Assembly (NCBI GenBank): GCA_963281255.1
Contig: OY725490.1
Location: 5,456,001-5,520,000, forward strand
DNA: 64,000 bases
From: Aphrocallistes beatrix
Taxonomy: Eukaryota > Porifera > Hexactinellida > Sceptrulophora > Aphrocallistidae
Direction: 5' to 3'
Part shown: piece by piece, positions 3,086 through 63,653 of the stretch
Layout of the letters: every line of letters begins with the position of its first letter
Position numbering within the stretch: the first letter of the stretch is position 1
The notes under the pieces: model-generated
The model's input: the letters and a program-made list of their open reading frames with translations, nothing else
What the model was told of the DNA's origin: nothing
The model's database searches: none
Made by a program: the position numbers and the translations under genes

Positions 3086-4540
3086 ATTAGACAAAATTAC
3101 ATTTTATCGAAAAATGAGGCTTTCAACAGCTTTGGAGATGACAGGTTATTAATCGAGAAATATTTTCCTAATTCACGTCATATCGAAATTCAAATATTAG
3201 CTGATAGAAGCGGAAAAACTGTTTCTCTGAATGAGCGTGAATGCTCAATACAAAGGAGAAATCAAAAACTAATTGAAGAGGCCCCTTCTAGTATAGTAGA
3301 TTCTGATTTTAGACAATTGATATCAAAACAAGCAATTTTATTAGCTAAAGCTGTAAATTATGAATCTGCAGGTACTGTTGAGTTCCTAGTTGATAGCTCC
3401 AAAAAATTTTTCTTTTTGGAAATGAACACAAGGTTACAAGTTGAACATCCTGTTACAGAATTCACGACAGAAATTGACATTGTTCGAGAAATGATTTTAA
3501 TAGCTTCTGGAAGGGATTTATCATTTGATCAATCTCAAGTAAATATTAATGGTTGGGCGATAGAGTCAAGGATTTATGCAGAAGATCCGAACTCTTTTAT
3601 GCCATCGAATGGGATTATTACTCAATATTCCGAACCAAAAGATAATATAGATTACATTCGTGTTGATAGCGGTTTTTCGAAAGGATCAGATATATCTATC
3701 CATTATGATCCACTCATATCTAAATTGATAACATTTGGAAATGATCGAAATGAAGCTATATCTACCATGTTAAATGCATTAGATCAATATAACATTATGG
3801 GTGTCAAAACGAATATCCCACTTATTAAAAGAATTTTGTCAAATCATCGGTTCTCTCTCGGTGATATCAACACAAATTTTATCAATGAAGAATTTAAATC
3901 TGACAATAAACCACCTATAGACTGGCAAGAATGGAATATTATGGCTTTTGGTGCTTCTTTAATACATCTCGTTCTAAAAAATCGAAACTATTTGGATAAA
4001 TTTTCTTTATTTTGTGATAAAAGAGATAAACTTTATGTTGAAGAAAATTCCCGAAGTACTATATACGATATTGTTCAAAAAGATCCTTATTACGAGACCT
4101 ATTTGGGAGGATCACATATATCTGGTGAGATCGAATGGACGCCATCATGTTCTGTATTGTTAATAAAAGGATCAAGTTTTGATCGCAAATTTTATACGAA
4201 TGTAAATAACAAACACAAAATTGGTGTTTCACTTGATGGTGATACTAAATATTTTTCTGTCTATAGTTACTTAGAGAAAACTTATTTAGAATATATGACA
4301 GAAAAAAAAGATATATCTAGTCCATATATTCTAAATGCTCCAATGCCTGGTATTATTAAAAATTTATTTGTTGTACCTGGTGACTCTGTTGAAATTGGAA
4401 CAAATTTAATTATTATCGAAGCTATGAAAATGCAAAACATAATTACATCCCCGATTAAAGCAAAGGTTAGAGAGATTCGTATCAAGAATGGTGCTAATGT
4501 TGATGAGGGGGATTGCTTGATAGAATTTTATTCTGATTAA
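3086..4540 (+). CDS. PCCA: Propionyl-CoA carboxylase alpha chain, 3'-terminal exon
   Basis: This exon encodes about 484 residues, roughly the C-terminal two-thirds of a 700-730 residue mitochondrial PCCA, and ends at TAA 4538-4540. PCCA carries the biotin carboxylase and biotin carrier functions that, with PCCB, make methylmalonyl-CoA from propionyl-CoA. In order the exon shows the end of the ATP-grasp region (FGDDRLLIEK, NERECSIQRRNQK), the biotin carboxylase signature FLEMNTRLQVEHPVTE, the carboxylase C-terminal part (RIYAEDP, VDSG..GSDISIHYDPLISK), a BT-type linker, and a biotinyl domain with EAMKMQN. The biotin-accepting lysine is codon 4427-4429. GSDIS.YDP..SKLIT and EAMKMQN are closer to PCCA than to MCCC1 or ACC, as I recall these families. 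The frame is unbroken. It begins after a pyrimidine tract and AG at 3085, because an in-frame TAG sits directly upstream. N-terminal exons must lie before the window or within the repeat-filled DNA upstream. Such a long uninterrupted exon is notable because the vertebrate gene is split into many exons over this region. Confidence 0.95.
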   Translation: MRQNYILSKNEAFNSFGDDRLLIEKYFPNSRHIEIQILADRSGKTVSLNERECSIQRRNQKLIEEAPSSIVDSDFRQLISKQAILLAKAVNYESAGTVEFLVDSSKKFFFLEMNTRLQVEHPVTEFTTEIDIVREMILIASGRDLSFDQSQVNINGWAIESRIYAEDPNSFMPSNGIITQYSEPKDNIDYIRVDSGFSKGSDISIHYDPLISKLITFGNDRNEAISTMLNALDQYNIMGVKTNIPLIKRILSNHRFSLGDINTNFINEEFKSDNKPPIDWQEWNIMAFGASLIHLVLKNRNYLDKFSLFCDKRDKLYVEENSRSTIYDIVQKDPYYETYLGGSHISGEIEWTPSCSVLLIKGSSFDRKFYTNVNNKHKIGVSLDGDTKYFSVYSYLEKTYLEYMTEKKDISSPYILNAPMPGIIKNLFVVPGDSVEIGTNLIIIEAMKMQNIITSPIKAKVREIRIKNGANVDEGDCLIEFYSD

Positions 4541-5308: not shown

Positions 5309-6251
5309 CATAGCCCTCTGTATATAAGGCCTGCCATCTAAATCTCAAAAATGGACCAGGGATGCGGTCGAAGATGGTTGATCTAATGCATGATCTGCCT
5401 AAAATCATTAACGACACAGAATAGAGCTTCATAATGTATTATCAGCATATATAAATATGGTGTCAAAGTACCCATATCTGTTGTTAAAATTTAGAATTAG
5501 TCATCTCATAATTGCGTAATAGGTTTATTTGGGACAAATTAAGTGATTTTCAGACCGTTAAGGGCACTTCTAAGTGTTTTTATTATAATTTATTTCGTAT
5601 TGAACTGAGTTAGCTGAATTTGATCTTATTTGATAGCCAATGGACTACTTCCTATAAAGCCATAATCTAATTTCCAACTCTAGATTCAATGCTTTACGAG
5701 TTATTAGACATTTTATCACTTTGGTCACATTTGGTAATTTGTCTAATAATTCAACTCTTGAATCCAGGCGTGGAAATTATATTATTGCTTTATAGGAGGT
5801 ACAATATTGGTTATCAAATATGATCAAATTTGAATGCATAGTTATTGTGGTTTTCAAGATGTGACCTCAAATGAGCAAACTGCGTTTCCATTGCACCGCT
5901 GGAATGTAGCAACATTCCATTGAAAAAACTACCAACCCACCAACCCATTTACAGCTCAGTTCTATGCGAAAGAAATTATATTAAAAACAGAAGTGCCCTT
6001 AAATGGCCTCTGAAAATCACAAAATTTGTCCCAAATATAACCTATGGTGCAATCATGTGATAACCAATTTAAATTTTAACAACGGATATGAGTATTTTGA
6101 CACTATTTATATATGCTGGTAATACATTCCGAAGCTCTATTCTATGTCATTAATGATTTTGGCAGATCATGTATTAGTTCAACCATCTTCAACCGCATCC
6201 CTGGTCGATTTTTGAGATTTAAATGGCATGCCTTATATACAGAGGTCTATG
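5309..6251. mobile_element. Family B palindromic P-type MITE (copy B4), diverged
   Basis: The ends CATAGCCCTCTG and CAGAGGTCTATG enclose two arms of about 450 bp that are imperfect reverse complements. The blocks CAGCATATATAAATATGG and GGATGCGGTCGAAGATGG occur at one end and reversed at the other. The flanks AATGATG and AATGACG are a 6/7 match, consistent with an old 7-bp target duplication. It has no coding capacity and is the most diverged of the complete copies. Confidence 0.75.
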
Positions 6252-7841
6252 AATGACGTTATTTAGCTGTTAATAGTAGCTAAGTTGTTGTTTTAGCAAT
6301 TCTGCAATGCAGAAACAACCAAGGCTGTGAATAAGATTATTAGTATGCAAAGCTTTGCAGTTAACAGCGTATATTAAAACATGACACTACTAATACAAAA
6401 ATATTTAACTACTTAATTAAGTCATATTCAAATTATACTAAAAAGGGATAATTAATGAAGACGAATACACTCTTCAAATGTTATGATCCGAGACATTAAA
6501 GTTGGACATAGTAGTTGAATAATTCAATAATTACTCAATTCAATGAATAAAACTCAATCAGTGCGATTAGAGATAATTTATTAACATCATGTATAATAGT
6601 TAAAATGGACAGGTGAACAGATGGTAAAGTGGACATATACACTACCCATTCAAAAGCATTCGACCACAACGAAAACCTCTATTTTAATAGTATTAAAGTA
6701 GGCCTATTCTTAAAGGAACTCAAACTATATAAAATACTATATTTTGACTTCATCTTCTTGATCTACATGTAATCACTCATATTTGAGACTGTTAATCAAA
6801 TTACTAACCCCAGAGTTTAATAATACCAAACTTCGATAAATGATGCGAGAATACATATTCAACTCCCCTGTTACTCGGAGGCACGCCACACATAGAAAAA
6901 GAATTTTTGAAGTCGCAGAAAATTGTTTCCATTAGTGCGCCCCATTGGATCATGTGGTAACAAGACGGCCAGCGCGTGTAATGAACCAAACGAAAAGTCT
7001 GTACAACAGAATGAAAAAGTGGCAGGCGGGTGAAACGAACTATTCTTTACTGTAATTACAAGTTCCTTTACTCTTCAAACAATCCCTTATTACCAGCTTA
7101 ATTTTGTGAGCAAGATAACCATACATATAAATACCTTTTGTCATGCTTTAAGGGGGAAAGGACTCAAGAGATTCTATGTATCAACTTGACCACAATCATC
7201 GCTAGGCCGTTCACGGTTAAAGCATCTCCAATCTGTGAGTCTATCACATCCTGTAAAATCATGGGTGACCAGGGCGTTTTGTAGGGGGACCAATAGCATA
7301 GGGTTTGGGGAGCTGTAATCCTTCCAGTGGGATCTAAGTGCAAAGCCTCTGGAAACTGAAAAGTGAACTTTGCAATATCAGCACTCTAAACAAGTATAAA
7401 AATTTAATCCGAGAGACCAATAGTGCAGCTCCAGCAAGACTTAGCACCCAAAATATGACTATAGTAATACATCGGGATTACTCAATTTATGTAAACTAAT
7501 AATATACTAGTTACATTCTTATGTTAAAAATACAAAAAACGAGTTCTACAAATTAAAATTGCCTTATATTTGCTGTTGAGAACTTGCTTATATCTTAAAA
7601 TAAAATATTTTTTAAAAGTGTGAAAATATGTTATACTTAGTATACACATGTAGTAACTCATAGAAAACTCACATTATTACTTTCAACGTGCGAAAATCGG
7701 ATTGTACAGATTCAGATACCCTATAATGGCGGTTGAGAACTCGCTTTAGCAAACGATAATGATTTCTATATATATCTCCAAACATGCTTTGCAGTGGAGG
7801 TGTTAAAATATGAATAATTCTTTAATATTAAAACTCGATTA
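6252..7841. other. Mostly unassigned DNA with a Tc1-like fragment
   Basis: At about 6648-6730 the sequence TACACTACCCATTCAAAAG and its downstream block resemble the left end of the MITE at 60083-60565, but no right end is present. A stray partial family A start lies at 7822-7840. In the rest I see no gene or repeat I can support. Confidence 0.4.
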
Positions 7842-10499: not shown

Positions 10500-10590
10500 A
10501 CATATATATATATATGTAACCAATTGAATAAACTATCAGTCACAGAATGCTGATTTTTGGCATGTGGGAGTTTTTTGTCTATGGCTCTAC
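10500..10590 (+). mobile_element. Family A 5' fragment, split by B1
   Basis: The (TA)n tract, TGTAACCAATTGAATAAAC and CTGATTTTTGGCATGTGGGA are family A sequence. The copy resumes after B1 at 11657 with GCTCTACTAGTTTCAGATC and fades out near 11700. Confidence 0.75.
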
Positions 10591-11656
10591 CATAGTCTAC
10601 TCTAATAATGCTTCACAGTAGACTGAAAATTATGTACTAGGGATGAAGAAGTAGCCGAATGGATTAATACACGATTAGCCTAAAATCGTTAACGATACAG
10701 AATAGGCATTAAGAATGTATTACCTCCATATATAAACATGGTATAAAAGTACATATATCAGTTGGTAAAATTTCGATTAGTCATCATATCATTCCGCAAC
10801 AGGTCATTCTATGGACAATTTTAGCGATTTTCTAAGCAGTTTTAACCCTATTTCTTAATGGTTTTAAGGTGTGATTTTTGTGTAGTACCAAGATTAGTAC
10901 GAGTAGATTTGAAAAATTTAGAATTTTTCAATGGAATATTGTTACATTCCAGCGTTGCTATGGTAAAGCATTTTGGCCAGTTTGGGCAATTTCTAATAAC
11001 TGTAGTACTAGATCTTCAAATTTGATCGTGTTTGATATCAATGGATTACTTCTTATTAGATGATAATACAACTTGAACTTCTAAATTCAACGAGTTTTGA
11101 GTTATGGATTGATTTTTTGAATGTGATCAAAACACTAAATTGTCGCATAACTCTACGTATATTCTGTGAATTTAGAAGTTTAAATTGTATTATTAACTAA
11201 TAAGAAGTAGCCAATTGCCTATCAAATACGATCAAATTTGAAGACTTACTTCTAACAGTTTGCAGGATATGACTCAAACTGATCAAAATGCTTTACCATA
11301 GCAACGCAGGAATGCAACAACATTCCATTAAAAATTCTAAATTTTTCAAATTAACTCGTACTAATCTTGGTTCGACACAAAAATTCTACCTCAATAACAT
11401 TTAGAAGTAGGCTTAAAACAGCTTAGAAAATTGCCAAAATCGTGCTTAAAATGACCTGTTGCGAAATGATATGATGACTAATCGAAATTTTACAACGAAT
11501 ATATGCACTTTGATGCCATGTTTATATATGCTGATAATACATTCTTAATGCCTATCCTACATGTTTAACGATTTTAGGCTAATCGTGTATTAATCCATTC
11601 GGCTATTACCGGATCCTTGGTTATTTTACTGTCAGGCCTTTTTAGAGTAGGCTATG
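10591..11656. mobile_element. Family B palindromic P-type MITE (copy B1)
   Basis: The ends are CATAGTCTACTC and GAGTAGGCTATG, flanked by an exact 7-bp duplication GCTCTAC (10584-10590 and 11657-11663). The two arms of about 500 bp are imperfect reverse complements. For example GGATTAATACACGATTAGCC near 10653 reappears inverted near 11580. Each arm contains an X-box-like motif (GTTGCTATGGTAAAG at 10954 and its inverse near 11290). It is inserted in a family A fragment and has no coding capacity. Shared ends and TSD length with P elements 1 and 2 suggest P-transposase mobilisation. Confidence 0.85.
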
Positions 11657-11749
11657 GCTCTACTAGTTTCAGATCTTAGATAAAAATGTCATTTTGAGAC
11701 CCCAAATTCTCTCAGGGGCTTTGAGTGTTTTAAGTTCACTAGACATTTT

Positions 11750-12253
11750 ACCGCCTTCGAAAACCTTTGCGTGACGTAATAAAACGGCCAAATTTTTAAT
11801 TGTTAATTCCATTGTATTACTGACAGTTCTATCATCTAATCGTACAAGTTGGACAGTGTTTGTTTTGATTTTTAGGAGTCAACCCCCTTGAGTTTAGCGT
11901 TATTAATAATTAGAAATTATTTGAGGTTTTTCGACGCATTCATCGATTAGTTTCTTACTTTTTTGATATTTTTTAATGATATTGACCTCGAACATTGTTT
12001 TAACCCCTTTGGATATTATATAACACAAATATTTAGAAGAAAGGTCAATAAAATCCTATCATGTATCTCTCAAAGGGAGTTCATTTCTATAATGCTCGGG
12101 AAATGGAAAGTTTGATTTCAGATATTTCGTGATATTTGTATCAGAAATGAAATTATCATTTTTTTGAAAAATTGTTCAGACCCGACCATTTATTCGTGAG
12201 TTATCGTTTATTATAGGTAAAGTTCGGACATAATACAACTCTATGGTCCCGAA
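11750..12253 (+). mobile_element. Family C (TTAA element) left part, older copy
   Basis: The TACCGCCTTCGAAAACC start and the block ending CTATGGTCCCGAA match the left arms of family C copies at 20048 and 43533. P element 1 inserted directly after CTATGGTCCCGAA. The copy resumes for about 25 bp at 20023. Confidence 0.75.
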
Positions 12254-12528
12254 CATGGCTTACTATATATACGGCTAGCTAAGCAAAGAATTGCCAAAAT
12301 AATTTCCAGGCCATTGATTATATTCTGTTTGATCATGAATAATTGCAGATATCATTACATTTTCAAGTGTAAATAGGTTTTCACATACAACGGAAACATC
12401 TAGAATATTTTTGAGATTTCTCACTAAATTTAACCACTATGACGCAGCAAAAACTATCATCCATATATGGTAATGTTGCTATACTGTGTAGTGTCTGTGC
12501 TAGAGATTTCCAAGGAAATCTGGAATTT

Positions 12529-15412
12529 CTAATTTCTTTTTTCCGAAACTTCAAGCAAACAAAATGCACTCAATACATAGTGTTGTAATGAAGTACAGGG
12601 TAGAGTCAAACCACCTTGATTTAAGTTACTAACATACTCCGACGAAATAGGACTGTTGTTCAAGGAGCTCAAACAGACATGACAGTGGGTATGTTCTGAT
12701 AGCTTCAAAGATATATACCCTGAGATGTAAACGACAACTTGTTGAGAAGCATCAGTCAGCTGTAAATGATCGTAATCATTAATGAGCATGTTCCTTGCAA
12801 AGCCATATATAGATGAATTAGAATGAGCTGTAATTGATAAAGAAGTGATGTCAATATTTCGCTTTAGGAGAGATTTCAACTTGATTATTGACTCAGATCT
12901 GATCACCTCTTGCAAACTGACCAAAAAGCGTCCACTCAGTTGCACTCAGTTGCCGATAATGTGAAAACCTCCTCTCAAGTGGATTACTTTGCAAACGACC
13001 AGTAAATACATAATCATAACCTTCTGTAAGTAAGTCAAGAGATAATTCAGAGATGACATAGTTGGTCTGTATTAAGGCTTTGAAGGTTTGCTTAGAAAAT
13101 CCAAATTTTCCCGAGTCCCGCCACGTCATTAGCCAATTACTGAATGAACAAAGGAATTCTGTTTTAGAGTCATTTGAAACTAAAGCATTACCTTGACGAA
13201 AAGGGTGAAAGCGTTACTTCGAATTTACAGAGAGCCACCAAATCCGAATTAGATTTAATAAAAAACCCCCCACAGACGGGATGGAAGTGTGCTTCCAAAT
13301 CTCATAAGTCACCTTAAGTCACCTTTATTATACTTAAATAATCAATTCCAGTCCATGTCGTTAAAAGTTATTTTATGATCGAATTGATTGATCGTAGCAT
13401 ATAACACACTTTAATTCTTGTTAACGATCAAATAATAGACTCAAAATAGCAGTATTCAATCATTTATATGAAATAGAATCGTGTGAATGGCATTATAAAA
13501 GGCTGATAATTGATTGGTTGTCACATGAACCAATGAATTTCAATCACAAATAGTTCTTTTGATTGTATGCATAAGTATAGCAATATTATTTTATTCCAAT
13601 GTATTTGCACTATAAAATAATCGAATTTGATTGGCCAGCACATTTTGTCACCTATCTCGAAGAGGTGTGAACTCGGCGAGGTATGAACACCGAGGTGCAC
13701 ATCTCCATATCACTTTGCATCTCCTGTAAAAATTTCAAGACGATATCTCTTAAACTCTGGTCAGGACACGAATTTCGGACGGCCGGCCGGCCGGCCGGAA
13801 CATCCTCATTTTAGTACTGTGCATACTATACTAATACTATAGGAAGCACACTAAAAATCCAGGAGTAACTTCCTCTTTAGGAAGGTATAAGCGAAGTGCA
13901 CTTATAGTTGATTCGTGGAAAATGGCAAGAGCTAAGGAAACAGATTGCTTGTTATTTCCTGGATGAAGTACAGAGTAGTTGATCTTATTTGCAGCACGGA
14001 GGTGTGCAGATAAGCTTAAGTCTTTCTCGTGAATTGTATGAAAATGGGACCACCGTACAAATCCTGATTGAAAGGAAATATTGATATTTACAGAGGAAAA
14101 GTGGAAGGATGGAATATCAAAAAATTTATTTGCTGCTAGATTATTTCTGATGTTTTTGATCAAGTGGCAGGTATCAAAGAGAAGATAAATATACTCATCA
14201 GGAAGGTAAGGGTTAATGATTTTGTAATCTTTGTCCTGAACTTTGTAATTCGTTAAGAGACGAGTGTAAACATTCACATTTGTTGAGTGGTTATCTGAAA
14301 CGATTGCTCTAATTCTGAACCGAGATTGTGTGAGTAATAACAAACATTTATCCAGATTCCCATAAACAATATCACCCGAGTTTTTAACTTAGAGGTACTG
14401 CTGAGATCACAAATGGGATCGACTTCATTAGTGATATGACCATAAAGCATAATATACTTGTGTACATTTCCAAATCAGGATTACAACCAACCAATGTATG
14501 CCCACTAAATTGAAATTGAGATCGGAGATGCATTTCATCAAGTAAAATTGCAACATTATTGCCAATAAAGTTTGAGTCACGTAGAAATTGAAGTGCATGG
14601 CAGTTGTCTATAGAAGGGGATTTAAGCTTTCGAAGTAGTGAGTTGCTTGGGAGAGGAATGTATTTCTTAAGAAAACTATAAGCGGAATTAGAAGTATATC
14701 TAAGTATTAGAGAGAAACGCAGAACCTGTGATGAGTACTTCGGTCTACCGCGAGGACTGAAATAACAAAGTTGAATTAGCTCCTTTATAACATCAACATC
14801 ATACTTTGAGTTAAAATTCCGACAATAACTTGGTAAATTCTCAAGAGCATCTAAATGTGTTAGCTTGTGGTCAGTAGAATTTTGGATATAACTAGGAAGA
14901 GGAATCTGTGAATTTTCAAACTTAGTTTAACTTGGAAGTCTGTGTAGATAGTAATACATTCCTTTACACTAGCAAGCCCAGAGCTAATAACAAGATGGTA
15001 AGCAGTTACGAAACTGTCTTCTATGTGTAGTTTCAAACTGGCAAACTCAGGAGACTTTTCGAGGAAATCAACAACATCCTGAAATTTTTGAATTCTGTAC
15101 TTTCCCTCGTAGATGGAAATTTGATCTGGTTGTAAGGCGCGGACTTTCGGTGGTGGACGTGAATTAGTAGGGATAATAGCCTGACTAAGAGGAGTTGAAG
15201 GTGGATGGATAGTAGGAATTGGTTTGATATTGTAATTCAATCTTGTGAAATTCTGGGGAGTAAGTTTCAGGAATTTATCATTAAAATGAAGCGAGCAAAT
15301 GAAAGAATTTTTAGTTATAACAAAGTCTGCGGGTCTGTTGAGAAAACGCAACCATTTACCAGACAATTCTTTGTCCTGAGGAAACTTGTAGCAAGGGTTA
15401 TTAAGTCCATCC
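12529..15412 (-). pseudogene. P-element (THAP9-like) transposase, decayed and interrupted
   Basis: The gene reads leftward. Its start lies at 19405-19403 beyond the nested transposon, opening with M-P-N-K-C-S-V-V-G-C-H. The THAP domain resumes at 15412 with NNPCYKFPQD, W and FICSLHF, which completes the C2CH signature. Next come the P-transposase blocks VAILLDEMHLRSQFQFSG and ILCFMVISLMKSIPFVISAV (about 14580-14400), VSDNHSTNVN and LLFDTCHLIKNIRNNL (14300-14130), and the C-terminal block TGRLQSNPLERRFSHYRQ (about 13010-12960) followed by GRFLVSLQEV in another frame. I see at least one in-frame stop within the THAP segment (just after C-H), a frameshift near 12950, breaks around 14360-14860, and foreign DNA at 13216-13845. 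It was a DNA-binding cut-and-paste transposase and is now non-functional. Confidence 0.9.
13216..13845. other. Unidentified insertion in the P transposase gene
   Basis: Transposase coding similarity stops near 13845 (TPGFL) and resumes near 13215 (HPFRQGNAL). The intervening 630 bp contains a short perfect palindrome run of GGCC units (13779-13798) and no recognisable ORF. I could not find terminal repeats or a direct duplication, so the element type is unknown. Confidence 0.5.
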
Positions 15413-16232
15413 CACGGGTGTAATATTTCAACGAAAATTTGAGAAAAATTACCAATGCAAACCACCTCTATAACAATGTTTTAGGATGTCTATAGCATAA
15501 GAATCTCGGGTTATCTCACTCTGGTCACGTCAGAATTTTTAAATTTTCGTCTTTTTCACAGGTGCCATTATGTATATATTTGAAATTTTTATTTTGTTTA
15601 TTCTAAGCGGAAGAAAGATTGAATGGGTATTTATAGCATTAAGAATGGACAGAAATACAATGTATATTGTATTAAGGTGATCATTTAAGACTTGTCAGTT
15701 CACTCTTATCCTATTCTTTAAATTTATTTTAATTTTTGCTAAAATTTATACTTGTATTTCGTCTTTCATTAACATACCTTGAAAGACTACTTAAAATTAA
15801 TGTTAAAATAGTGAAGAAGTGATTCTACTTCATTCGGGAGCATTTATGATATAACAGAATATCATATATGATGCTTCTGAAACATTTTTCACAAAACTAT
15901 ACTTGATTTCCCATGTCGGCCATTCAATTTCGGACGAAAATGAAATTGAGGATTTTACGTATATTTTACAGTTGTACGCTAGACCTTTAAATTTTAGTTG
16001 ATAATATAAAAATGCACTTTTGACTGGTAAATATTTAATCTTTCAACAATATTGGATATGGTACTGTCTCCTGATTCAGAATAGGAGGATATTAATTTAT
16101 ATTGTGAGCCTACATTTAATGAAATATCCATTGTCAATCGAAGTCACTCTCATCCGAGTTTTCAGAGTCAGTCAACCAGTTATGTAGTTCTATTCTTACT
16201 TCATCGTGCTCATTTGATTCGCTTTCAAATTC
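15413..16232. repeat. Left 820-bp inverted arm
   Basis: It is the reverse complement of 18537-19356. Equal lengths imply few or no indels. By eye I noted only one mismatch (GTGATCATT near 15680 against AATGATTAC near 19088). The inner 100 bp are an antisense copy of the last codons of the transposase gene, and homology fades gradually beyond, to about 16280. Confidence 0.9.
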
Positions 16233-16385
16233 AAAATCTTGTGCGTTATTAAATTCTTCATCCGTATTTTCTGATGTATTTTCTCGGTTTTCCTATTCAA
16301 TATCTTACGATAAATGTCGAAATTCTTGACATTTATCTAAATTCTTGAAATTCGATTGTACAAATTAGTATTTTATTGCTAATCT

Positions 16386-18635
16386 ATGGATATTCCAAAT
16401 GAAATTTCTGATCTTTTTGATAATTATCATATTGATAGTTTATATCGTCTTTGTCGGTTTTGTTTCAATCGACTTTCTTCCCAAACTATCCCCAAGGAAG
16501 CCATTCGCAAACCACCTACCCAACTGGTAGTAGAAAGAGCTCTGAAATTTTATCAGATACATTTCAAGGTAGAAATTTCTGATATGACTAAGCCTAAAGT
16601 TCTTTGCTCTGGCTGTCGAACTCGTCTTGCTAATCTGGAAACTGGGAAATTAACTTTGGAAAAATTCGAGAGGACCTTAAAAATCTCGAGATTCTACCAA
16701 TTATCGAAGATCAACAATATGGTACTCGTAGAATTACAGGTTGTACATCAGATAATCGTTGCCATGTTTGCCAAATTAATGGCTCTTGCCTTAACAACTA
16801 CATGGTCAAACTTAAAACTCATGGTCCTAAACCAGGCAGACCTCTAGAACAGTCACCATGTAGAACAATGTGTAGTAAATGTGGAAAATTTCTAGAAAAT
16901 CACAACGATAAATTTTGTAGAAATATCCTAAAACACCCCCACAGTTCATCAGAAGCTGGAAAGCATTTTGCGGAGAGAGTAGAAGCACGAGAGTTTACAA
17001 GTAAATTAGCAGCTGGTTATATCAAAGACACATTAAAAAAAGATATTCATTCTAATCCATGCAAGCCATTAATTGGTCTCAACCATCCCTTTGATGCAAA
17101 CAACAGACTGGCAATAACAACAATCAAATATGATGGTAGAAAAAGTCCAGTACTAAAGCAATTGAGCATTGAATCTGCTCGAGATATTCAAAGACTAGGA
17201 CATCTTGGTCTTGGAAAACATTCATATTGGGAATTGGGCAGAATTTTACGTCGGGATGAGATTGTCTTTCCTTCATGAGGAATTAAAGAGGCATGGGATG
17301 AAAAATGGTCGGTATTCGGAAGCATTTTCACTCCAATCACCCTTCAGATGATATGTAGAGAAAATATCCAATGCCAACGCCATTCGGATTTTGTACAGAT
17401 ATTGAACATCTCCTTAACATCATCACTCATAATCAATCGGATAAAGTTTCAAGATTAAACTACAAATTGATGGAGGAAGAGAATTCCTGAAAATGTCGTT
17501 AAATATCGTATCCATGAATCCTGGTAGTATCTATTCTCCTACACCAAATAGCGTACTTTCCAACTTTGTTATTGCAATGGGTCATGATCTAGAGAACTAT
17601 CAAAATCTGAAAGAGCTTTTCAGTTTTCCCTCAATTCAAAAATTGTTTTTAATCAATGCGCCTGTACAAATATCTTGTGATTTTAAGGTAGCAGCTTTAA
17701 TTGTCGGGATTCAGCTAGCATCGAGCAAATATCCCTGTCCTTACTGTTTGTGGCGCAATGGTACTTCTTGCACTGGAGTATCAAACCAATCGAGGATGCG
17801 AGAAGAAATGATGAATTACCTTGCAAAGAAACATCATAATGTCATTAACGAACCACTCATTCATTGGTCAGAGTCAGTAATGGAAAAAATTGCTCTAGCT
17901 CCACTGCATATTCTTCTCGGGCTCGTAAATAGACTATTTTCTGAATCAAAACCTAATGAAAAAGCTACAAATAAAAAAGATCGTCAGTTGTATAAACTCC
18001 ACTGTATGGCGTTATGTAAATACAATGTGTTTCGTTCAGAATATTGGAATGGCACCCTAGAAGGCAATTCTTGTTCGAGACTTCTAGACCACTTAGATGA
18101 TATTCCATTTCCAGCCAGCTCAGTATGCTTTATCAATGCAATAAAAACTTTGAAACAAGTCAAAGATAAATGCCTAGGGATGGTGAGAAAATCAGGTTGG
18201 CAAGATAGTATTCGAGCATTTAGAGAAGCATGGCGTGATACAGGGTTACCTTGGTCTTTGAAATCACATATCTTATCGGATCATTATGAGGAATACTTGA
18301 CCCGTTTTGAAAATGACGCAAATGCTGGTGCAGCACTTAGTTCAGAGCAAAGCGGGGAAATGCTACATTCCAGACTGCAAAAGGTATGGGATCTTCGATT
18401 CAAGACTAGGGCTGAAAATCCATTATTTTCTCAACGTCTTGTTGATTGTATGGTGGTAACATACAACTATAACTTAAATTGGGATAGGGCACAAAGGTCT
18501 TTAGAAAATACGGATGAAGAGGCTAACAATACACAAGAATTTGAAAGCGAATCAAATGAGCACGATGAAGTAAGAATAGAACTACATAACTGGTTGACTG
18601 ACTCTGAAAACTCGGATGAGAGTGACTTCGATTGA
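16386..18635 (+). pseudogene. RAG1-N-terminal-like zinc region plus DDE-like transposase, decayed
   Basis: The first part (16386-16680) holds LCRFCFNRL and, about 60 residues on, VLCSGCRTRL. After a frameshift near 16680 come RCHVCQINGSCLNNY and then CSKCGKF (about 16860). This order of C-x2-C pairs resembles the N-terminal region of RAG1 and the molluscan N-RAG-TP transposon proteins as I remember them. The frame continues to about 17276, where TGA stops it, then shifts again. IDGGREFLKMSLNI lies at 17466-17505, just ahead of and into the last ORF. That ORF (17493-18635, 380 codons) contains CDFKVAALIVGIQ, CPYCLW, LAPLHILLGLVNRLF, YWNGTLEGN and SSEQSGEMLHSRL, a set that could supply a DDE-type core. 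The C-terminus is acidic. At least one stop and two frameshifts disable it. Catalytic residue assignments are guesses. It could instead be called simply an unclassified transposase. Confidence 0.7.
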
Positions 18636-19356
18636 CAATGGATATTTCATTAAATGTAGGCTCACAATATAAATTAATATCCTCCTGTTCTGAATCAGGA
18701 GACAGTACCATATCCAATATTGTTGAAAGATTAAATATTTACCAGTCAAAAGTGCATTTTTATATTATCAACTAAAATTTAAAGGTCTAGCGTACAACTG
18801 TAAAATATACGTAAAATCCTCAATTTCATTTTCGTCCGAAATTGAATGGCCGACATGGGAAATCAAGTATAGTTTTGTGAAAAATGTTTCAGAAGCATCA
18901 TATATGATATTCTGTTATATCATAAATGCTCCCGAATGAAGTAGAATCACTTCTTCACTATTTTAACATTAATTTTAAGTAGTCTTTCAAGGTATGTTAA
19001 TGAAAGACGAAATACAAGTATAAATTTTAGCAAAAATTAAAATAAATTTAAAGAATAGGATAAGAGTGAACTGACAAGTCTTAAATGATTACCTTAATAC
19101 AATATACATTGTATTTCTGTCCATTCTTAATGCTATAAATACCCATTCAATCTTTCTTCCGCTTAGAATAAACAAAATAAAAATTTCAAATATATACATA
19201 ATGGCACCTGTGAAAAAGACGAAAATTTAAAAATTCTGACGTGACCAGAGTGAGATAACCCGAGATTCTTATGCTATAGACATCCTAAAACATTGTTATA
19301 GAGGTGGTTTGCATTGGTAATTTTTCTCAAATTTTCGTTGAAATATTACACCCGTG
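18537..19356. repeat. Right 820-bp inverted arm
   Basis: This is the partner of 15413-16232. It includes the transposase 3' end (18537-18635), so the coding sequence runs into the terminal inverted repeat. Confidence 0.9.
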
Positions 19357-20047
19357 ATCCTTATAGCCTTAGTGGCAACCAACAACAGAACATTTATTAG
19401 GCATCAATAATGTGATTTCTAATTGAGAATTGAATGCTAAATAGTAAATTCTGCATAAGATAAGCTATATATTAACCCTAAATTTGTAACATAAGTTGTG
19501 AGAACTTTAACTTGGTTAGTCATGGGGTGGTACAGATAATATATTATAGCAAAACGTAGAATATAGGTTTCGAAATGTATTATGATTGTAAAAAGAATTT
19601 TATCTATTTATTCATTCATCAAATTCTTAAACTTGTGGTTTGATATCAACAAAATATAGAGCTAAGTCATAACGATGTTGTGTGATCATAAAACGATTTT
19701 GATGGTATTTACTAGCTTATATTAAGTAGAATGTTAATATAGATAAATTTTCTTGTTAAATCGCAGGAAAAATTGAGTTAAATGCATCTAAAATTAGCAC
19801 AATTACCATATATGGATGTTATTTTTTGCTGCGTCATTGTGGTTAAATTTAGTGAGAAATCTCAAAAATATTCTAGATGTTTCCGTCGTATGTGAAAACC
19901 TATTTACACTTGAAATTGTAATGATATCTGCAATTATTCATGATCAAACAGAATATAATCAATGGCCTGGAAATTATTTTGGCAATTCTTTGCTTAGTTA
20001 GCCGTGTATATAGTAAGCCATGTCCCGAAGGAAGCCAATGTCATATC

Positions 20048-21378
20048 TTAAGGATACCGCCCTAGAAAAACATCGCCTACCATTAAAAAAAATGGTGGAA
20101 TTTTTTATTGCTAATTCCATCGGATTACTGAGTAGTCTACCATCTAATCGTACTTGTTAGACGGTATTTATTTTGATATTCTAGAACTGAGCACCTAAAG
20201 CTCAGGCGTACTAAAAATCGGAAAGTTATTCGTGGTTTTGAGGCGCATTCATCAATTATTTTCGAACTTATCTGATATTTTTTCAATTATATGAACCTCA
20301 AAATGGTTTTGGCCCCTTTAAATATTATAAAACAGATGAATTTAGAAAAAGAGGCACTTGAAATCCAATCAAAAATATCTTTATGAGGGACTTCAATTCT
20401 AAAATGCTCGGGAAATGGCCGTTGTGATATTAGCTATTGTGTATAGAAAAGAATTCTGAACATTTTTTTAAAAGTTTGTTCAGATCCGACCATTAGTTCG
20501 TAAGTTATANNNNNNNNNNNNNNNNNNNNNNNNNNNNNNNNNNNNNNNNNNNNNNNNNNNNNNNNNNNNNNNNNNNNNNNNNNNNNNNNNNNNNNNNNNN
20601 NNNNNNNNNNNNNNNNNNNNNNNNNNNNNNNNNNNNNNNNNNNNNNNNNNNNNNNNNNNNNNNNNNNNNNNNNNNNNNNNNNNNNNNNNNNNNNNNNNNN
20701 NNNNNNNNNACTAACTTGGAAACTAAAAGTCGTAGACTCTCGTTTTAACTTTATACTTTTTAGAGGGCTTTATTCATTCTAAACTGATGGATTATACTTT
20801 GTAGTACTAAGAAATGTGAATTATTATTCACAATTAGCTCAAAATATTCAGAGTTGGGGGTCACAAGAAATTTTGTGGATTTTCAGTGTACTTTTGCCAT
20901 TTTCCTCTAAATTTGATTGAATATATCTAAATCATCAATATAAATGCGGATAAATGCCTGTAAATGCTTTTATTTTGCCTTAATCACTCATTTAACATTG
21001 TTCTTAAAATTTCAAATAAATTCTTCATATCTTAAGACATTAAAATTTCAAAATTGCCCGTCTTTAAAATGAAAAAAGTCAAAGTTGGTTTGAGATGGAG
21101 GTTTGAAAATTTCAAGAGTTGTTCCATATCATTATTCGATAAACGTAGGACCACACTATTCCGATATCTATAACTTAGTGATATTATTGCTGATTTACCA
21201 AAAAACCAGACGTTTTTCGTTTTCTTTAGGTACTTTTTGCAAACCCATATAAAATTTAATTATTTTGTTATTTTAACTTTCTTTTGGTCCTATGAGGTGA
21301 CAAATATGATACAGTATCTAGTATACGATTTTGAAAGTATATTTATCTCCTTGGCATGCCCTAAGGGCGGTATCCTAA
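20048..21378 (+). mobile_element. Family C TTAA element (copy C1), contains assembly gap
   Basis: TTAAGGATACCGCCCTAG opens the element and CTAAGGGCGGTATCCTAA closes it. TTAA is the apparent target duplication, with one copy mutated. It inserted into a TTAA of an older family C copy. TTAA targeting fits piggyBac or Kolobok-type transposition, but no transposase remains to decide. The middle is lost in the N run. Confidence 0.75.
20510..20709. other. Assembly gap, 200 N
   Basis: There are exactly 200 undetermined bases, probably a fixed-size scaffold gap, so the true length is unknown. It lies inside a repeated element. Confidence 1.
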
Positions 21379-40250: not shown

Positions 40251-41568
40251 CGAGGGCTGTCCAAACAGTTCGCTAACTTTTTACTGTATTTAATACACCC
40301 ATTTTCCTAGACAATTGTTATCCTTTTAAATCAATATATCCATCGATGTGCATCATTTTATTGCTATTATCGACCATCGTAAATTATATACTTAGTAATT
40401 TTTTTCTGATTGAAGTTGGATACATATTCACTCAAATGGAACTTTCTGATATTGGAAAGCGACATGTCATTTGGTTCCTGTGGAAGCAGGGGAAAAAAGG
40501 TGCTACAATTCATAGGGAGATGTTGGATATCTATGGTGATAATTGCCTTCCAGCGTCATGATCTACAAATGGATCGATCGCTTTAATGATGGTTGGGATA
40601 CACCTGAGGATGCTCCACGTAGTGGCCGTCCGACCACCGTATCCACTGAATTAAATACGACACGAATTGAGTCTGCTTTAGACGAAGATCGAAGATCAAC
40701 TTTGCGGCAACTAGAAGAAACTCTGGGGATATCAAAATCGACCATTCATAATGTTGTCAGTCAAACTCTCGGAATGTCGCGAGTTTCCGCTAGATGGGTC
40801 CCCAAACTCTTGACTGATGAGCAAAAGCGGCGACGAGTGGTGGTTTGTCGAGATTTAATCAGGAGTTGGCAAGATGAACGCAATTATCTAAGTCGTATCG
40901 TGACCGGGGATGAAACTTGGGTTTATCACCATGAACCAGAGTCAAAGGTACAAAGTAGTCAATGGAAGAGGAGGTACGAGCCTGTGCCTATCAATGCCCG
41001 GACCACAAAATCCGCTGGGAAAAGAATGGCTACCTTTTTCTGGGACAGTGAAGGAATCATTCTAATAAACTGGCTCCACGAGAAAATGACTATTAATAGT
41101 GAGTATTACATCGATATACTCAATGATCTGCGTGCAGCTATTAAAAGTAAACGACGAGGGAAGTTAAGCAGTCGAGTTCTGTTACAACATGACAACGCTA
41201 GATCCCATACAAGCCATAAGACAACGGATGCCATTGCTTCCTTAGGCTTCGAGCTCATGCCTCACCCAGCTTATAGTCCAGACCTGGCCCCGAGTGATTA
41301 CTGGCTTTTTTCAGAATTGAAAAGGTCGCTTCGTGGAAAGAGATTCGATAATTTTAAAAATCTTAGTTCAGCTGTTGACCACTGGGTAGATAGTGTCCCT
41401 CCAGAATTCTTTGCAAAAGGAATTGAAAAGCTTCCAGAAAGATGGCAAAAATGTATACGTAAAGCTCAAGGGACAGTATATTGAAAATTTTGACGAGGAT
41501 ATTTACTAATCTATCATAGATTTGTTGAATTAGCCTATTTAGTTAGCGAACCTTTTGGACAGCCCTCG
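40251..41568 (+). mobile_element. Mariner, full length (1318 bp), nearly intact
   Basis: The inverted ends CGAGGGCTGTCCAAA and GTTCGCTAAC are present at both sides, with TA target duplications at 40249-40250 and 41569-41570. Length and organisation (about 185 bp 5' leader, one ORF, about 80 bp 3' tail) match active mariners. It encodes the transposase described next. Confidence 0.95.
40436..41484 (+). pseudogene. Mariner transposase (DD34D), one frameshift
   Basis: This enzyme cuts and pastes the element at TA sites in the nucleus. The frame opens at ATG 40436 (MELSDIGKRHVIWFLW), reads about 40 codons, and is continued one base out of phase by a long frame to TAG-free sequence ending TGA at 41484. 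The second frame has HTH 2 (SKSTIHNVV), the mariner linker WVPKLL, and catalytic motifs TGDETW, LLQHDNARSHTS and YSPDLAPSDYW, with exactly 34 residues between the second and third aspartates. The only defect I can see is a single frameshift near 40543-40560. Total length about 348 residues is normal for the family. All three catalytic residues are retained. Confidence 0.9.
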
Positions 41569-47790: not shown

Positions 47791-48442
47791 ATGCAACCTT
47801 CTCTTGATAATTTTCTAATTTGATATTATTTAATATATGGATCCTAATTGTGTGGGAATTCTGAAGTATTTACAAATATATACTAGTTTTTATTTAATAA
47901 GTTATGTCATCAACATCCAACTGTTCGGATTCTGAAAACGAAAACGTACTCTAGGAACATGGAAAAGACAGATTCCATCAGAGCCATTTCATTCTCCCGA
48001 GTTCAGAGCCCTTATACTCCTCTATTCCAACCCAGTAGCCCGCAGGATATCGATTTCTGCTACACTGCCGACCAATCCTTGCCCCAAATCGCCTTTGACA
48101 ACACTAGAACTATCTTTGCATGAGTCAATGTTTTTCAACTACTGATTCATGACCCAGTCTGTTATGGAAACGTGATAACAGATCAAAGAGGTCTAAATTT
48201 CATGGAATCCAATTCAACTCTCTAGAGAAGGGGAAAATTATATGATTTCTCCATTAGTGATACTTCATCCGCAGATACTTACCTTACTTAGCCCCATCCA
48301 AAAGAAATTGAAGTAGATACTTCCGCAACGTGGATACATCTCCTCAACAAATCTGGTGGTTTGGTGGCTATGCCACCAAATTTTATTAAAATCTGGTCTA
48401 TTTAGATAGTGTATTTAGAATTTGGTGGCTATTAGCCACAAC
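47791..48442. other. Unassigned; possible remnant upstream of a MULE fragment
   Basis: A short frame near 47905 (SSTSNCSDSENEN) and GGTGGCTATGCCACC-type hairpins are seen. No family is identifiable. Confidence 0.3.
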
Positions 48443-49502
48443 CATAGCCTACTCTAATAATGCCTCACAGTAGACTGAAAATTATGGACTAAGGATGAAG
48501 TAGTAGCCGAATGGATTAATACACGATTAGCCTAAAATCGTTAACCTAGGATAGGAATTAAGAATGTATTACCAGCATATATAAACATGGCATCAAAGTA
48601 CATATATCCGTTCGAAAAATTTCGATTAGTCATCATATCATTGCGCAACAGGTCATTCTAAGGACAATTTTAGCGATTTTCTAAGCTGTTTTAACCCTAT
48701 TTCTAAATGCGATTAAGGTGTGATTTTTGTGTAGAACCAAGATTAGTACGAGTTGATTTGAAAAATTCAGAATTTTTCAATGGAATGTTGTTAAATTCCT
48801 GCGTTGCTAGGGTAGGGCATTTTGGTCAGTTTGGGACATATCCTGTAAACTGTAGTAACTAGATCTTCAAATTTGATCGTGTTTGATAGGCAATGGACTA
48901 CTTCCTATTAGGTGATAATACAAGTTGAACTTCTAAATTCAACGAGTTTTGAGTTATGGGTTGATTTTAAGAATGTGACCAAAACACTAAATTGTCGCAT
49001 AACTCTATAGTCTGTGAATTTAGAAGTTTAAATTGTATTATTGCCTAATAGGAAGTAGCTAATTTCTATCAAATACAATCAAATTTGAAGACCTAGTTCT
49101 TACAGTTTGCAGGATATGGCTCAAACTGATCAAGATGCTTTACCATAGCAACGTAGGAATGTGACAACATTCCATTGAAAAATTCTAAATTTTTCAAATC
49201 AACTCGTACTAATCTTGGTTCTACACAAAAATCACACCTTATTACCATTTAGAAATAGGGCTAAAACAGCTTAGAAAATCGCTAAATTGTCCTTAGAGTA
49301 CCTGTTGCGCAGTGATATGATGACTAATCGAAATTTTCCAACGAATATATTTACTTTGATGCCATGTTTATATATGCTGGTAATACATTCTTAATGCTTA
49401 TCCTACATGGTTAACGATTTTAGGCTAATCGTGTATTAATCCATTCGGCTATTACCGCATCCTTGGTTATTTTACTGTGAGGCATTATTAGAGTAGGCTA
49501 TG
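48443..49502. mobile_element. Family B palindromic P-type MITE (copy B2), 1060 bp
   Basis: The ends are CATAGCCTACTCTAATAATG and its inverse, flanked by an exact 7-bp duplication CCACAAC (48436-48442, 49503-49509). The arms are about 500 bp imperfect reverse complements and closely similar to B1 and B3. X-box-like GTTGCTA motifs lie in each arm. Non-coding. Confidence 0.9.
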
Positions 49503-54034: not shown

Positions 54035-54344
54035 CCTTCGCTTAATCGAGATATTAATTCCTGATTAAGCGGAGGAAAATATAGTTTTTCTTCGCTTAAT
54101 CGGGACAATAATTCCGATTAAGGGAGGAAAATATAGTTTTTCTTCGCTTATTCGGGACAATAATTCCCGATTAAGCGGAGGAAAATAAAGTTTTTCTTCG
54201 CTTAATCGGGAATTATTGTCCCAATTAACCGATTTGTTGTCCCGATTAACCGATCAATTTATAATGTAAAATCCGTTCCCTTTCAACTTGTCCCGATTAA
54301 GCGGATTTCCCGATTATCCGTCTCCGATTAAGCGGCTTCCACTG
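54035..54344 (-). repeat. pogo/Tigger terminus with 54-bp subterminal tandem repeats
   Basis: About 3.5 copies of a unit of about 54 bp, CTTCGCTTAATCGGGACAAT...GATTAAGCGGAGGAAAATAT, lie at 54035-54240. Each unit contains an inverted pair (CGCTTAATCGGG/CCCGATTAAGCG). The outer end GGCTTCCACTG meets TA at 54345-54346. Such subterminal repeats are likely transposase binding sites, by inference. Confidence 0.75.
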
Positions 54345-55674
54345 TAATTACTAGCATCAGATTGGCAGGAAAATAGTTTTAGGATGCTAGAAACTTTCAG
54401 ATGACGTTCACTTGCTAATATTTGTAGATTAGAAACATGGTAATTATCACCTGACATCATGCGATAAAGTCCAAAATGGTGCTCTAAAGGATCTGTCTGC
54501 AAGAAAGACTTCAAGAGGTAAGAATAACCACAATTGCCTGTTAGAAGATTAGTGATTTGAGGCAGTACAAGGAAGGCATGTCTTAAGCTGGTAAAGGTCT
54601 GTTTACTTAAATTCCCCTCTTTATCAGGGAGTGATAGCCAAGCTTCTAACCAGTAGACTGCCTTAGTCAATGAAAAACGATCGTCATTTAAAGAAAAAGG
54701 GCGATATAGTGGGTCATTCAAACGAATATGTTTAAAAGGAACTTTTACATTGAAAATTTTCCGAAAGGAAAGTAGAAATTCAATAAATTCTGAAGTTTGT
54801 TTCTATACTGCGGACAACGTTGTTCGTTTTGAATAGCTAACGCAGCAATGGTAGACTCATGAATAACCTTTAAAACTAACTTCACATTCTGTGGTTCTAA
54901 ACTTGGAGAATAACAGGATTTCAAAAGTCAAGCGTGGGGCTAGTTTAGCCAAGCTTTCTTTCTCAGAATTATAAAGAGTACGGATATCTTGGAAAGAAGC
55001 AGAACATAGTCTTAGAGGGTAAGAATAAGAATCAGAGCGAATATCTTCGAAACTGGGAAAAATAAAACTGACATTCGACTTTAAATTCAACCAATTATTA
55101 AGAATAGATTTTAATATGTGTACAAAATCAAATGTAAGAAATAACACTATTGATGTCACATGGATGAGGTACTCGAGTTTCTAGATCACCAGTGGGAGAA
55201 AACAGTTTGAAAAGCTTCACATTAAGAGGGTAATTGTTCGTCGAGATTATTTGAACTACTAACAAGCCACAAGCCTCAACATCTAGAATATAAGACTTAA
55301 CAATTGCAAATATCTTCTCTGCTGATAAAGCTGCACATGGTAACAGACGAACAATGCAGGACCATTTTTTCTGAAGGCTAGAGACCATGATAGCAAATAC
55401 AGTTTTCGTAGGATTATCTGGACATATTGGATCCTATAATTTTGCCTCCCTTGTATGATATATCGAGTTTTATGAGTAATTTCATTCATTTGAAAGATGA
55501 CATGCTTTTGTTCATTCGAAAAAGAACACGTTGCTTTCCTCAGGAATGGAAAGAATTCATTTTCGTGCCCAAATGAAGAGTACAATTTTTCTAAAGGATT
55601 GAAGTGTGGTAGTGATAGGCAAGGCATGTGCTGGAGATACTGATAACAAGCTGGCGAGATCAGATATGTTTTAA

Positions 55675-60565: not shown

Positions 60566-60579
60566 TATATATCAATATC

Positions 60580-61651
60580 CATAGCCTACTCTAATAATGC
60601 CTCACAATAAAATAACCAAAGGATGCGGTAACAGCCGAATGGATTAATACACGATTAGCCTAAAATCGTTAACCATATTGGATAGGCATTAAGAATATAT
60701 TACCAGCATATATAAACATGGAATCAAAATACATGTATCCGTTGTCAAAACTTCGATTAGTCATCATATCATTGCGGAACAGGTCATTATAAGGACAATT
60801 TTATCGATTTTCTATGCTGTTTTAACCCTATTTCTAAATGGTATTAAGGCGTGATTTTTGTGTAGAACCAAGATTAGTACGAGTTGATTGAAAAATTTAG
60901 AATTTTTCAATGGAATGTTGCTACATTCCTACGTTGCTATGATAAAGCATTTTGATCAGTTTTTTGCCATATCCTGCAATCTGTAGGAACTATAGTTCTT
61001 CAAATTTGATCGTATTTGATAGGCAATTGACTACTTCCTATTTGGTAAAAACACAATTTAAACTTCTAAATTCACAGACTATAGAGTTATGCGACAATTT
61101 AGAGTTTTGGTAACATTCTTAAAATCAACCCATAACTCAAAACTCGTTGAATTTAGAAGTTCATGTTGTATTATCGCCTAATAGGAAGTAGTCCATTGCC
61201 TATCAACGCGATCAAATTTGAAGATCTAGTTACTACAGTTTGCCTAAAATCGTTAACCATGCTGAATAGGCATTAATAATGTATTACCAGCATATATAGT
61301 AATATGGCATCAAAGTACATATATCAGTTGGAAAAATTTCGATTCGTCATCATATCATTGCGCGCAATAGGTCATTCTAAGGACAATTTTAGCGATTTTC
61401 TAAGCTGTTTTAGCCCTATTTCTAAATGGTATTAAGGTGTGATTTTTGTGTAGAATCAAGATTAGTACTAGTTGATTTGAAAAATTTAGAATTTTTCAAT
61501 GGAATGTTGTACAATCCTGCGTTGCTATGGCAAAGCATTTTGGTCAGTTTGGGACATTTCGTGCTAATCGTGTATTAATCCATTCGGCTACTACTTCTTC
61601 ACTAGTCCATAGTTTTCAGTCTACTGTGAGGCATTATTAGAGTCGGCTATG
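60580..61651. mobile_element. Family B palindromic P-type MITE (copy B3), 1072 bp
   Basis: The ends are CATAGCCTACTCTAATAATG and CATTATTAGAGTCGGCTATG. The flanks CAATATC and GTATATC match at 5 of 7. Closely similar to B1 and B2, but the right half is rearranged: near 61240 a forward copy of the left arm (GCCTAAAATCGTTAACCATG) replaces the expected reverse arm. Confidence 0.8.
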
Positions 61652-61917
61652 GTATATCCTTACTATTAAAACTCGATTAATCACAGCCTATGTAACTATA
61701 TCCTGTTCACGGTACGAATTTTACCTCACCATGGATTACTTCAAGTCTATTTTGTAAACAAACCATGCTGTTTGCAATAAATTAGACTACGATAAAATGC
61801 AGTGTATAATATAGGATAAGTATCATTGTCAGTTTATATTATATAACCTACAATATTTCATACATTTTCATCCTAATTCCCAATTTATTCATCCACACGT
61901 ACATTTTTCTTAGCAAT

Positions 61918-62567: not shown

Positions 62568-63643
62568 CATAGCCTACTATAATAAGGCCTCAGAGTAACT
62601 TCCGAATTTGGCACTAGGGATGCAGCAGAAGATGGTTGAAGAAATACATGAGCTGCCTTAAATCATTAACAAAGTACAATAGAGCTTGCAATAGAGGAAT
62701 GTATTACCAGCATATATAAATATGGTGTTAAAGCACCCATATCCGTTTTTAAAATTTAGATTAGTCATCAAATGATTGCGGAACAGACGATATTTATGTC
62801 AAATTTAGTGATTTAGTGATTTTTGAGGTCGTTTATTGCACTTCTAAGTGTTTTTATTATCAAGTTTTTCGCATAGAACTGAGAAGTGAATGTGTTAATA
62901 CAAAAAATTTTTTCATGAAATGTTCTTACATTCCAGTGTTGCTATGGAAACGCGTTTTGGTCAGTTGGGGCTATATCTTGAAAACAGCGATAGCTAGACA
63001 TTCAAATTTAGTCCCATTTGATAGCAAATAGGCTACTTCCTATTAAGCTATAATACAATTTATATGTCTTAATTCAATAATTTACGAGTTATTAGACAAT
63101 TTATCATGTTGGTCACATTTGGTAATTTGTCGAATATCTCGTAAACCATTGAATTTAGACACAGAAATTGTATTATAGCTAAATAGGAAGTAGCCTATTT
63201 GCTATCAAATGGGATTATATTTGAATGTCTTGCTATCGCTGTTTCCAAGATATATCCCCAACTGACCAAAACACGTTTCCATAGCAACACTGGAATGTAA
63301 GAACATTCCATGAAAAAATTCCAAATTTTTAGTATTAACACATTCACTTCTCAGTTCTATGCGAAAAACCTTATACTAAAAACACTTAGAAGTGCCCCTA
63401 AACGGCCTCTGAAAATCACTAAATTTGACCCAAAAATAACCTGTTGCGCAATCATTTGATGACTAATCTAAATTTTAACAACGGATATGGGTGCTTTGAC
63501 ACCATATTTATATATGCTGGTAATACATTCCTAAGCTCTATTGTGCTTTGTTAATGATTTAAGGTAGCTCATGTATTTCTTCATCCATTTTCTACCGCAT
63601 CCGTGGTTGAGTTACTCTTAGGCCTTATATATAGTAGGCTATG
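62568..63643. mobile_element. Family B palindromic P-type MITE (copy B5), 1076 bp
   Basis: The ends are CATAGCCTACTATAATAAGG and its near-inverse, flanked by an exact 7-bp duplication CCTGACT (62561-62567, 63644-63650) that lies within the end of a Tigger-type MITE. The arms are about 500 bp. Each holds an X-box-like site: GTTGCTATGGAAAC at 62938-62951 and its inverse at 63275-63288. It belongs to the B4-like subgroup. Confidence 0.9.
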
Positions 63644-63653
63644 CCTGACTGTA

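Follow-up and report, generated by a model that had tools for sequence, protein, structure and literature searches.

A probable inactivated Chapaev transposon nested in a P element of the hexactinellid sponge Aphrocallistes beatrix

The Chapaev superfamily of DNA transposons (CMC clade) was reportedly introduced by Kapitonov and Jurka in 2007, and N-RAG-TP of Aplysia is said to have been described by Panchin and Moroz in 2008. According to the passages of PMC4079192 that deal with the group, Chapaev elements carry C(2)C, LH and H(4)H motifs, CAC/GTG ends and target-site duplications of generally 3-4 bp. A C(2)C and an H(3-4)H motif between the second D and the E are also common to EnSpm, Mirage, Chapaev, Transib and RAG1, as stated in the relevant section of PMC12730594. 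Kapitonov and Koonin (2015) named the truncated N-terminal part of RAG1 the 'Chapa domain' after the Chapaev transposons; in the corresponding part of their paper the domain is reported from Chapaev3 as well, a RING follows it in two Chapaev subgroups, and both Chapa and RING are given as then unknown from other transposable elements (PMC4411706). Here we analysed a window of 64,000 nucleotides, the whole stretch of A. beatrix DNA under study, in which a first-pass annotation had proposed a RAG1-N-terminal-like transposon nested inside a P element. We conclude, with a probability of about 0.9, that the element at 15413-19356 is an inactivated Chapaev (CMC clade) cut-and-paste DNA transposon inserted in the THAP region of that P element. 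Its borders are as follows.

15413..19356, + strand: Chapaev-type transposon, 3944 bp, CAC...GTG termini
15413..16232, + strand: 5' terminal inverted repeat (TIR), 820 nt, 100% identical to the 3' arm
18537..19356, - strand: 3' TIR, holding the last 33 codons of the transposase gene, stop included
15409..15412, unstranded: left copy of the 4-bp target-site duplication ATCC, directly before 15413
19357..19360, unstranded: right copy of ATCC, directly after 19356

The two arms of 820 nt each are 100% complementary and ATCC abuts either side, so the borders first proposed for the element were exact. Its termini read CACGGGTGTAATA.../...TATTACACCCGTG, with CACGGGTG at the start, CACCCGTG at the finish and ATCC flanking both. 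Two Chapaev hallmarks are present, namely 5'-CAC...GTG-3' termini within the TIRs and a 4-bp duplication (the general rule being 3 to 4 bp, and one copy representing one site). The earlier placement on the Chapaev branch, which relied on the duplication and the CAC ends, agrees in both respects with the hallmarks listed in that part of PMC4079192. A BLAST search at E up to 1e-3 found no second copy of the element within the 64-kb window. The transposase gene lies between and partly within the arms.

16386..16685, + strand: N-terminal piece, ATG at 16386, with CRFC at 16452-16463 and CSGC at 16605-16616; the frame shifts near ~16680
16673..17278, + strand: second piece, with CHVC at 16760-16771 and CSKC at 16871-16882; stop at 17278
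17279..17470, + strand: link between second piece and core, in which the frame changes twice more (judged by eye)
17445..18635, + strand: catalytic core, 396 open codons

Read by eye from a three-frame translation, this gene of ~750 codons has three frame changes and one stop, and the frame of CRFC/CSGC differs from that of CHVC/CSKC. Outside the TIRs the frame stays open for up to 364 codons, whereas the best of 500 first-order Markov simulations reached 179; the coding signal is therefore not due to chance. A full transposase can no longer be encoded by this copy, and the idea of a functional or domesticated gene was rejected on account of the three frame changes and the stop. When intact, the transposase (~750 aa) would have joined a D-D-E RNase-H-like core with C(2)C and H(4)H to a putative zinc region of Cys pairs at its N-terminus, of Chapa type and with no RING detected. 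Such a protein would bind the CAC...GTG ends, excise the element and join it to staggered target DNA, which would leave the 4-bp ATCC duplication. Zinc binding, DNA binding, catalysis and an intronless gene are all features that we infer for it.

Four breaks interrupt the gene, and the TIRs of the element match at every position along 820 nt. Over the adjoining ~40 nt inward (16230-16272, 18503-18545), identity (ungapped) falls sharply from 100% to ~84%, a profile that resembles a conversion tract. Ageing after insertion alone, we infer, would not yield perfect TIRs together with a broken gene; either the arms were lately homogenised, or some of the frame changes or the perfect arms would derive from the assembly. 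Homogenisation could have proceeded by gene conversion or gap repair, perhaps during in-trans transposition of an already dead copy, and the element may have moved in trans. We regard it as unlikely that the 820-bp perfect TIRs, or some of the frame changes, are an assembly artefact, a reading which would in any case be compatible with Chapaev identity. A perfect 820-nt repeat does look odd next to a disrupted reading frame, and a 200-base run of N lies nearby (20510-20709), but on the outside of the arms lie the two halves of one P element, with the correct 4-bp duplication, and past 820 nt they continue at ~84% identity, as expected of real, older TIRs. These very long TIRs have probably been recently homogenised.

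The residues of the catalytic core are located as follows.

17469-17471 and 17679-17681, + strand: first and second D
17736-17747, + strand: CPYC, the C(2)C motif
17904-17909, + strand: LH
17997-18002, + strand: additional LH
18267-18284, + strand: HILSDH, the H(4)H motif
18345-18347, + strand: E

The DDE core has the Chapaev/CMC set, with C(2)C, LH and H(4)H in order between the two D and the E, and the proposal of a DDE-like transposase core is borne out by this 396-codon open stretch containing D, D, C(2)C, LH, H(4)H and E. A loose pattern for the motif order also occurred in 24 of 5000 shuffles; a strict pattern with RAG1-like spacing occurred in none of 20000, and was composed after both proteins had been viewed. 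The reference was mouse RAG1 from PDB chains 9jpu/6oem. C(2)C follows the second D by 19 residues, as it does in RAG1 (D708, C727), and the distance from the second H to the E is 21 residues here compared with 20 in RAG1 (H942, E962). In a local alignment, residues 7-355 of the 396 in the core paired with RAG1 597-1012, so that the second D coincided with D708 and the C(2)C motifs lined up; H(4)H fell off RAG1 H937/H942, and the LH of RAG1 was matched to the second LH of the core (residue 185) in place of the first (154). The alignment score was reached by 10 of 500 shuffles (local) and 6 of 500 (global). Neither Pfam (E up to 1) nor the prokaryote-oriented NCBIfam had a family matching the core. 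AlphaFold models of the core and the N-terminal piece, built without relatives, were unusable (mean pLDDT 40.7 and 46.9).

Upstream of the core, the Cys pairs CRFC, CSGC, CHVC and CSKC follow the order of the RAG1 N-terminal (RAG1-N) stretch, which has CRIC, CHDC and CDIC. With BLOSUM45, the alignment between the first piece and RAG1-N takes in the two pairs of that piece, and its score was equalled by 29 of 1000 shuffles and by 75 of 1000 in which the Cys were held fixed; with BLOSUM62 the counts were 31/1000 and 118/1000, and just ten residues were aligned. The second piece showed no similarity to RAG1-N (149 to 361 of 1000 shuffles were as good). The Pfam RAG1 models, including RAG1_imp_bd, did not match the pieces of the element at E up to 1 (up to 0.1 in a further scan), and RAG1_imp_bd matched the RAG1-N sequence used as positive control with E=2.2e-88. 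Pfam likewise found no RING in the second piece, where RAG1 has one after its third pair, and detected the RING of RAG1 in the control. Hence the earlier label 'RAG1-N-terminal-like' holds for the C-x2-C order and is accompanied by a marginal pairwise score, but the HMM comparison with RAG1 that had been suggested as a check gave no match to the pieces, though it did to the control. RAG1-N likeness of the N-terminus is plausible, given the motif order and what is known of Chapaev, and is unproved from this sequence alone.

Set beside Chapaev by description only, the element agrees in its CAC...GTG ends, 4-bp duplication, D..D..C(2)C..LH..H(4)H..E core and putatively also in its N-terminal Cys-pair region, which may be Chapa-like; it differs in 820-bp TIRs that extend into the coding end and in the absence of a detected RING. 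Chapaev3 has the same core motif set, and the relevant part of PMC4411706 reports the Chapa domain there too, but its duplications are 3-bp TWA between A and T in the description in PMC4079192, and it was rejected because the duplication here is the 4-bp ATCC. N-RAG-TP of Aplysia, also compared by description, is likewise a transposon with RAG1-N-like Cys motifs; in the account consulted (PMC8355894) its sequence is wholly RAG1-N-like, whereas the present element adds a CMC core. Mouse RAG1 shares the N-terminal C-x2-C order, the 19 residues from D708 to C(2)C, and an H(4)H followed by the E; it differs in that the element has no detected RING and no overall match in PDB sequence searches.

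That the element belongs to a different CMC lineage, be it EnSpm/CACTA, Mirage or a group yet to be named, and has its 4-bp duplication and Cys pairs by coincidence, is very improbable. The CMC(T) lineages do have C(2)C, H(3-4)H, mostly CA...TG termini and 2-5 bp duplications in common, as the section of PMC12730594 cited above puts it. Against such a lineage, the Cys pairs stand in RAG1-N order ahead of the core, the 4-bp duplication and CAC ends are those of the Chapaev description (PMC4079192), and PMC4411706 states that no other transposable elements known at the time encoded Chapa or RING. A Transib/TransibSU (RAG1-like) transposon, and with it a direct relative of RAG1, has next to no likelihood and was rejected on duplication length: the second D does lie at a RAG1-like 19 residues before C(2)C and the Cys pairs are RAG1-N-like, but the duplication is 4 bp when those of Transibs are typically 5 bp (PMC4411706, in the part dealing with them), and phmmer retrieved no RAG1, RAG1L or Transib PDB chain at E up to 10 with either the first piece or the core. 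Each of these PDB searches gave a single chance match (E 1.5 for the N-terminal piece and 0.38 for the core); as a positive control, the RAG1 core as query, at E up to 1, retrieved 16 RAG1/RAG1L sequences, one Transib chain and one chance match.

The Chapaev reading includes insertion into an older transposon, of which the following parts were delimited.

About 12254..20021, - strand (gene): P element around the nested insertion, with 229-bp TIRs and Pfam domains
12253-12481 and 19795-20023, unstranded: TIR arms of the P element, 229 bp, 220/229 (96%) identical
12246..12253, unstranded: left target-site duplication of the P element, GTCCCGAA, 8/8 match
20022..20029, unstranded: right target-site duplication, GTCCCGAA, its first G perhaps part of the element end
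14860..15412, - strand: piece with most of the THAP domain (Pfam THAP E=1.3e-7, profile positions 20-86 of 87)
14384..14926, - strand: HTH domain piece (Pfam Tnp_P_element E=1.1e-6)
13837..14388, - strand: GTP-binding insertion domain piece (Pfam TNP-like_GBD E=1.7e-7)

P elements make an 8-bp target duplication; here it is 7 bp (TCCCGAA) if the ends are read as symmetric CATGG...CCATG, and 8 bp otherwise. The piece with the THAP domain is severed at 15412, and the start of the domain is located from 19361 on, on the minus strand. A THAP domain is expected to start with C-x4-C. Such a motif occurs just past the insertion site in the joined P-element flank, and since the Pfam match starts at profile position 20, the two observations together point to a THAP domain split by the insertion. 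With the flanks joined minus one ATCC, the THAP frame reads ...MPNKCSVVGCH*GY-KDGLNNPCYKFPQDKELSGKWLRF... (in shorter form, ...NKCSVVGCH*GY-KDGLNNPCYKF...) and continues across the junction, with a single stop three codons before it. One of the two other frames is likewise open over the junction, so openness by itself is no proof of THAP continuity. The insertion of the Chapaev element in the THAP region of a pre-existing P element is well supported, and the nesting already noted in the first-pass annotation stands on the THAP, HTH and GTP-binding domains, the TIRs, the short duplication and the THAP frame resumed across the junction. The TIR identities (96% and 100%) agree with the P element having come first and Chapaev later, to be taken with caution as the Chapaev arms were possibly homogenised.

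A separate lead concerns the N-terminal finger. ZAD (zf-AD) is best known from insect zinc-finger proteins, and zf-AD was the top Pfam match of the first piece (16383-16685), spanning both pairs with E=0.0068 and 17.1 bits, below the cut-off of 28. The next match was zf-RING_4 (E=0.0093, or 0.028 in another scan), over 14 residues and also sub-threshold; this and Nairovirus_Gn (0.12), as well as Pantoate_transf (E 0.37) in the second piece, fell below the cut-off and were taken as chance. Among ten shuffles of the first piece with the Cys fixed, zf-AD appeared in none at E up to 1, and three matched another family, the best being the unrelated Med27 at E=0.028. Given that a shuffle can reach this value, the 0.0068 of zf-AD is not far above chance and counts as a lead only. 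RAG1-N itself had no match to zf-AD at E up to 10, and a literature search in one library, with one spelling, found nothing that pairs RAG1 with 'zinc finger-associated domain'. It is doubtful that the first two Cys pairs of Chapa/RAG1-N would share the ZAD zinc fold, with the RAG1 N-terminal finger, Chapaev and ZAD descending from one ancestor.

Searches for relatives covered viral_contigs, genome_contigs and plasmids. The outcome named beforehand as refuting, with hAT, piggyBac or Dada transposases as the sole best matches, did not arise in these collections or in Pfam, NCBIfam and the PDB. Peptide-pattern scans of viral_contigs, whose reach is limited to close relatives, gave one pattern match for the core and six for the second piece, none of which tblastn, at E up to 1e-3, identified as a relative. 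Searching for the 'DGGxxFLK' block at the DNA level picked out 11 and 4 stretches in viral_contigs and 44 in genome_contigs, 59 loci in total; tblastn of the three transposase pieces against these loci gave a best E of 0.45, and all 59 were accordingly taken as chance matches. The core had no tblastn match in plasmids at E up to 1.

Other repeats and genes were observed elsewhere in the window. Imperfect palindromes of ~1.06 kb lie at 10589-11657, 48441-49502 and 62568-63645 (80.5, 86.2 and 84.9% self-complementary), with related pieces near 60575-61662 and 5309-6272; they have CATAGYCTACT-type ends and are foldback-like repeats. An ORF at 54314-54802 (- strand) that by eye, on the basis of a motif, resembles a P-element transposase in its C-terminal part had no Pfam match at E up to 0.1. 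At 40543-41484 (+ strand) is a mariner-like transposase, 313 codons open from stop to stop (Pfam Transposase_1 E=3.6e-19), possibly a near-intact copy. Of the ORFs scanned, only one is clearly a gene of host type: at 3086-4540 (+ strand, 484 open codons) lies a biotin-dependent carboxylase alpha subunit with biotin carboxylase and biotinyl domains, presumably propionyl-CoA carboxylase from its AMKMQN motif. Rfam and tRNA scans gave no matches.

The element had been held to be one of few such elements known and to bear on the origin of the N-terminal half of RAG1. Neither view is sustained: the Chapa domain was published in 2015 in Chapaev and Chapaev3, and the link between RAG1-N and Chapaev with it, as far as the pertinent part of PMC4411706 goes, so the element adds nothing new on RAG1 and that interpretation was a rediscovery. 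The presence of the element is confirmed and its borders are sharp, but it is nothing out of the ordinary: it is most probably a dead Chapaev copy, a further member of an already known kind of transposon, mildly curious in that its 820-bp TIRs are perfect while its gene is broken. If intact relatives turned up, the ZAD-like reading of the N-terminal finger would become testable. The locus contributes a single dead Chapaev copy whose long TIRs are perfect, together with a clear record of one transposon inserted into another.
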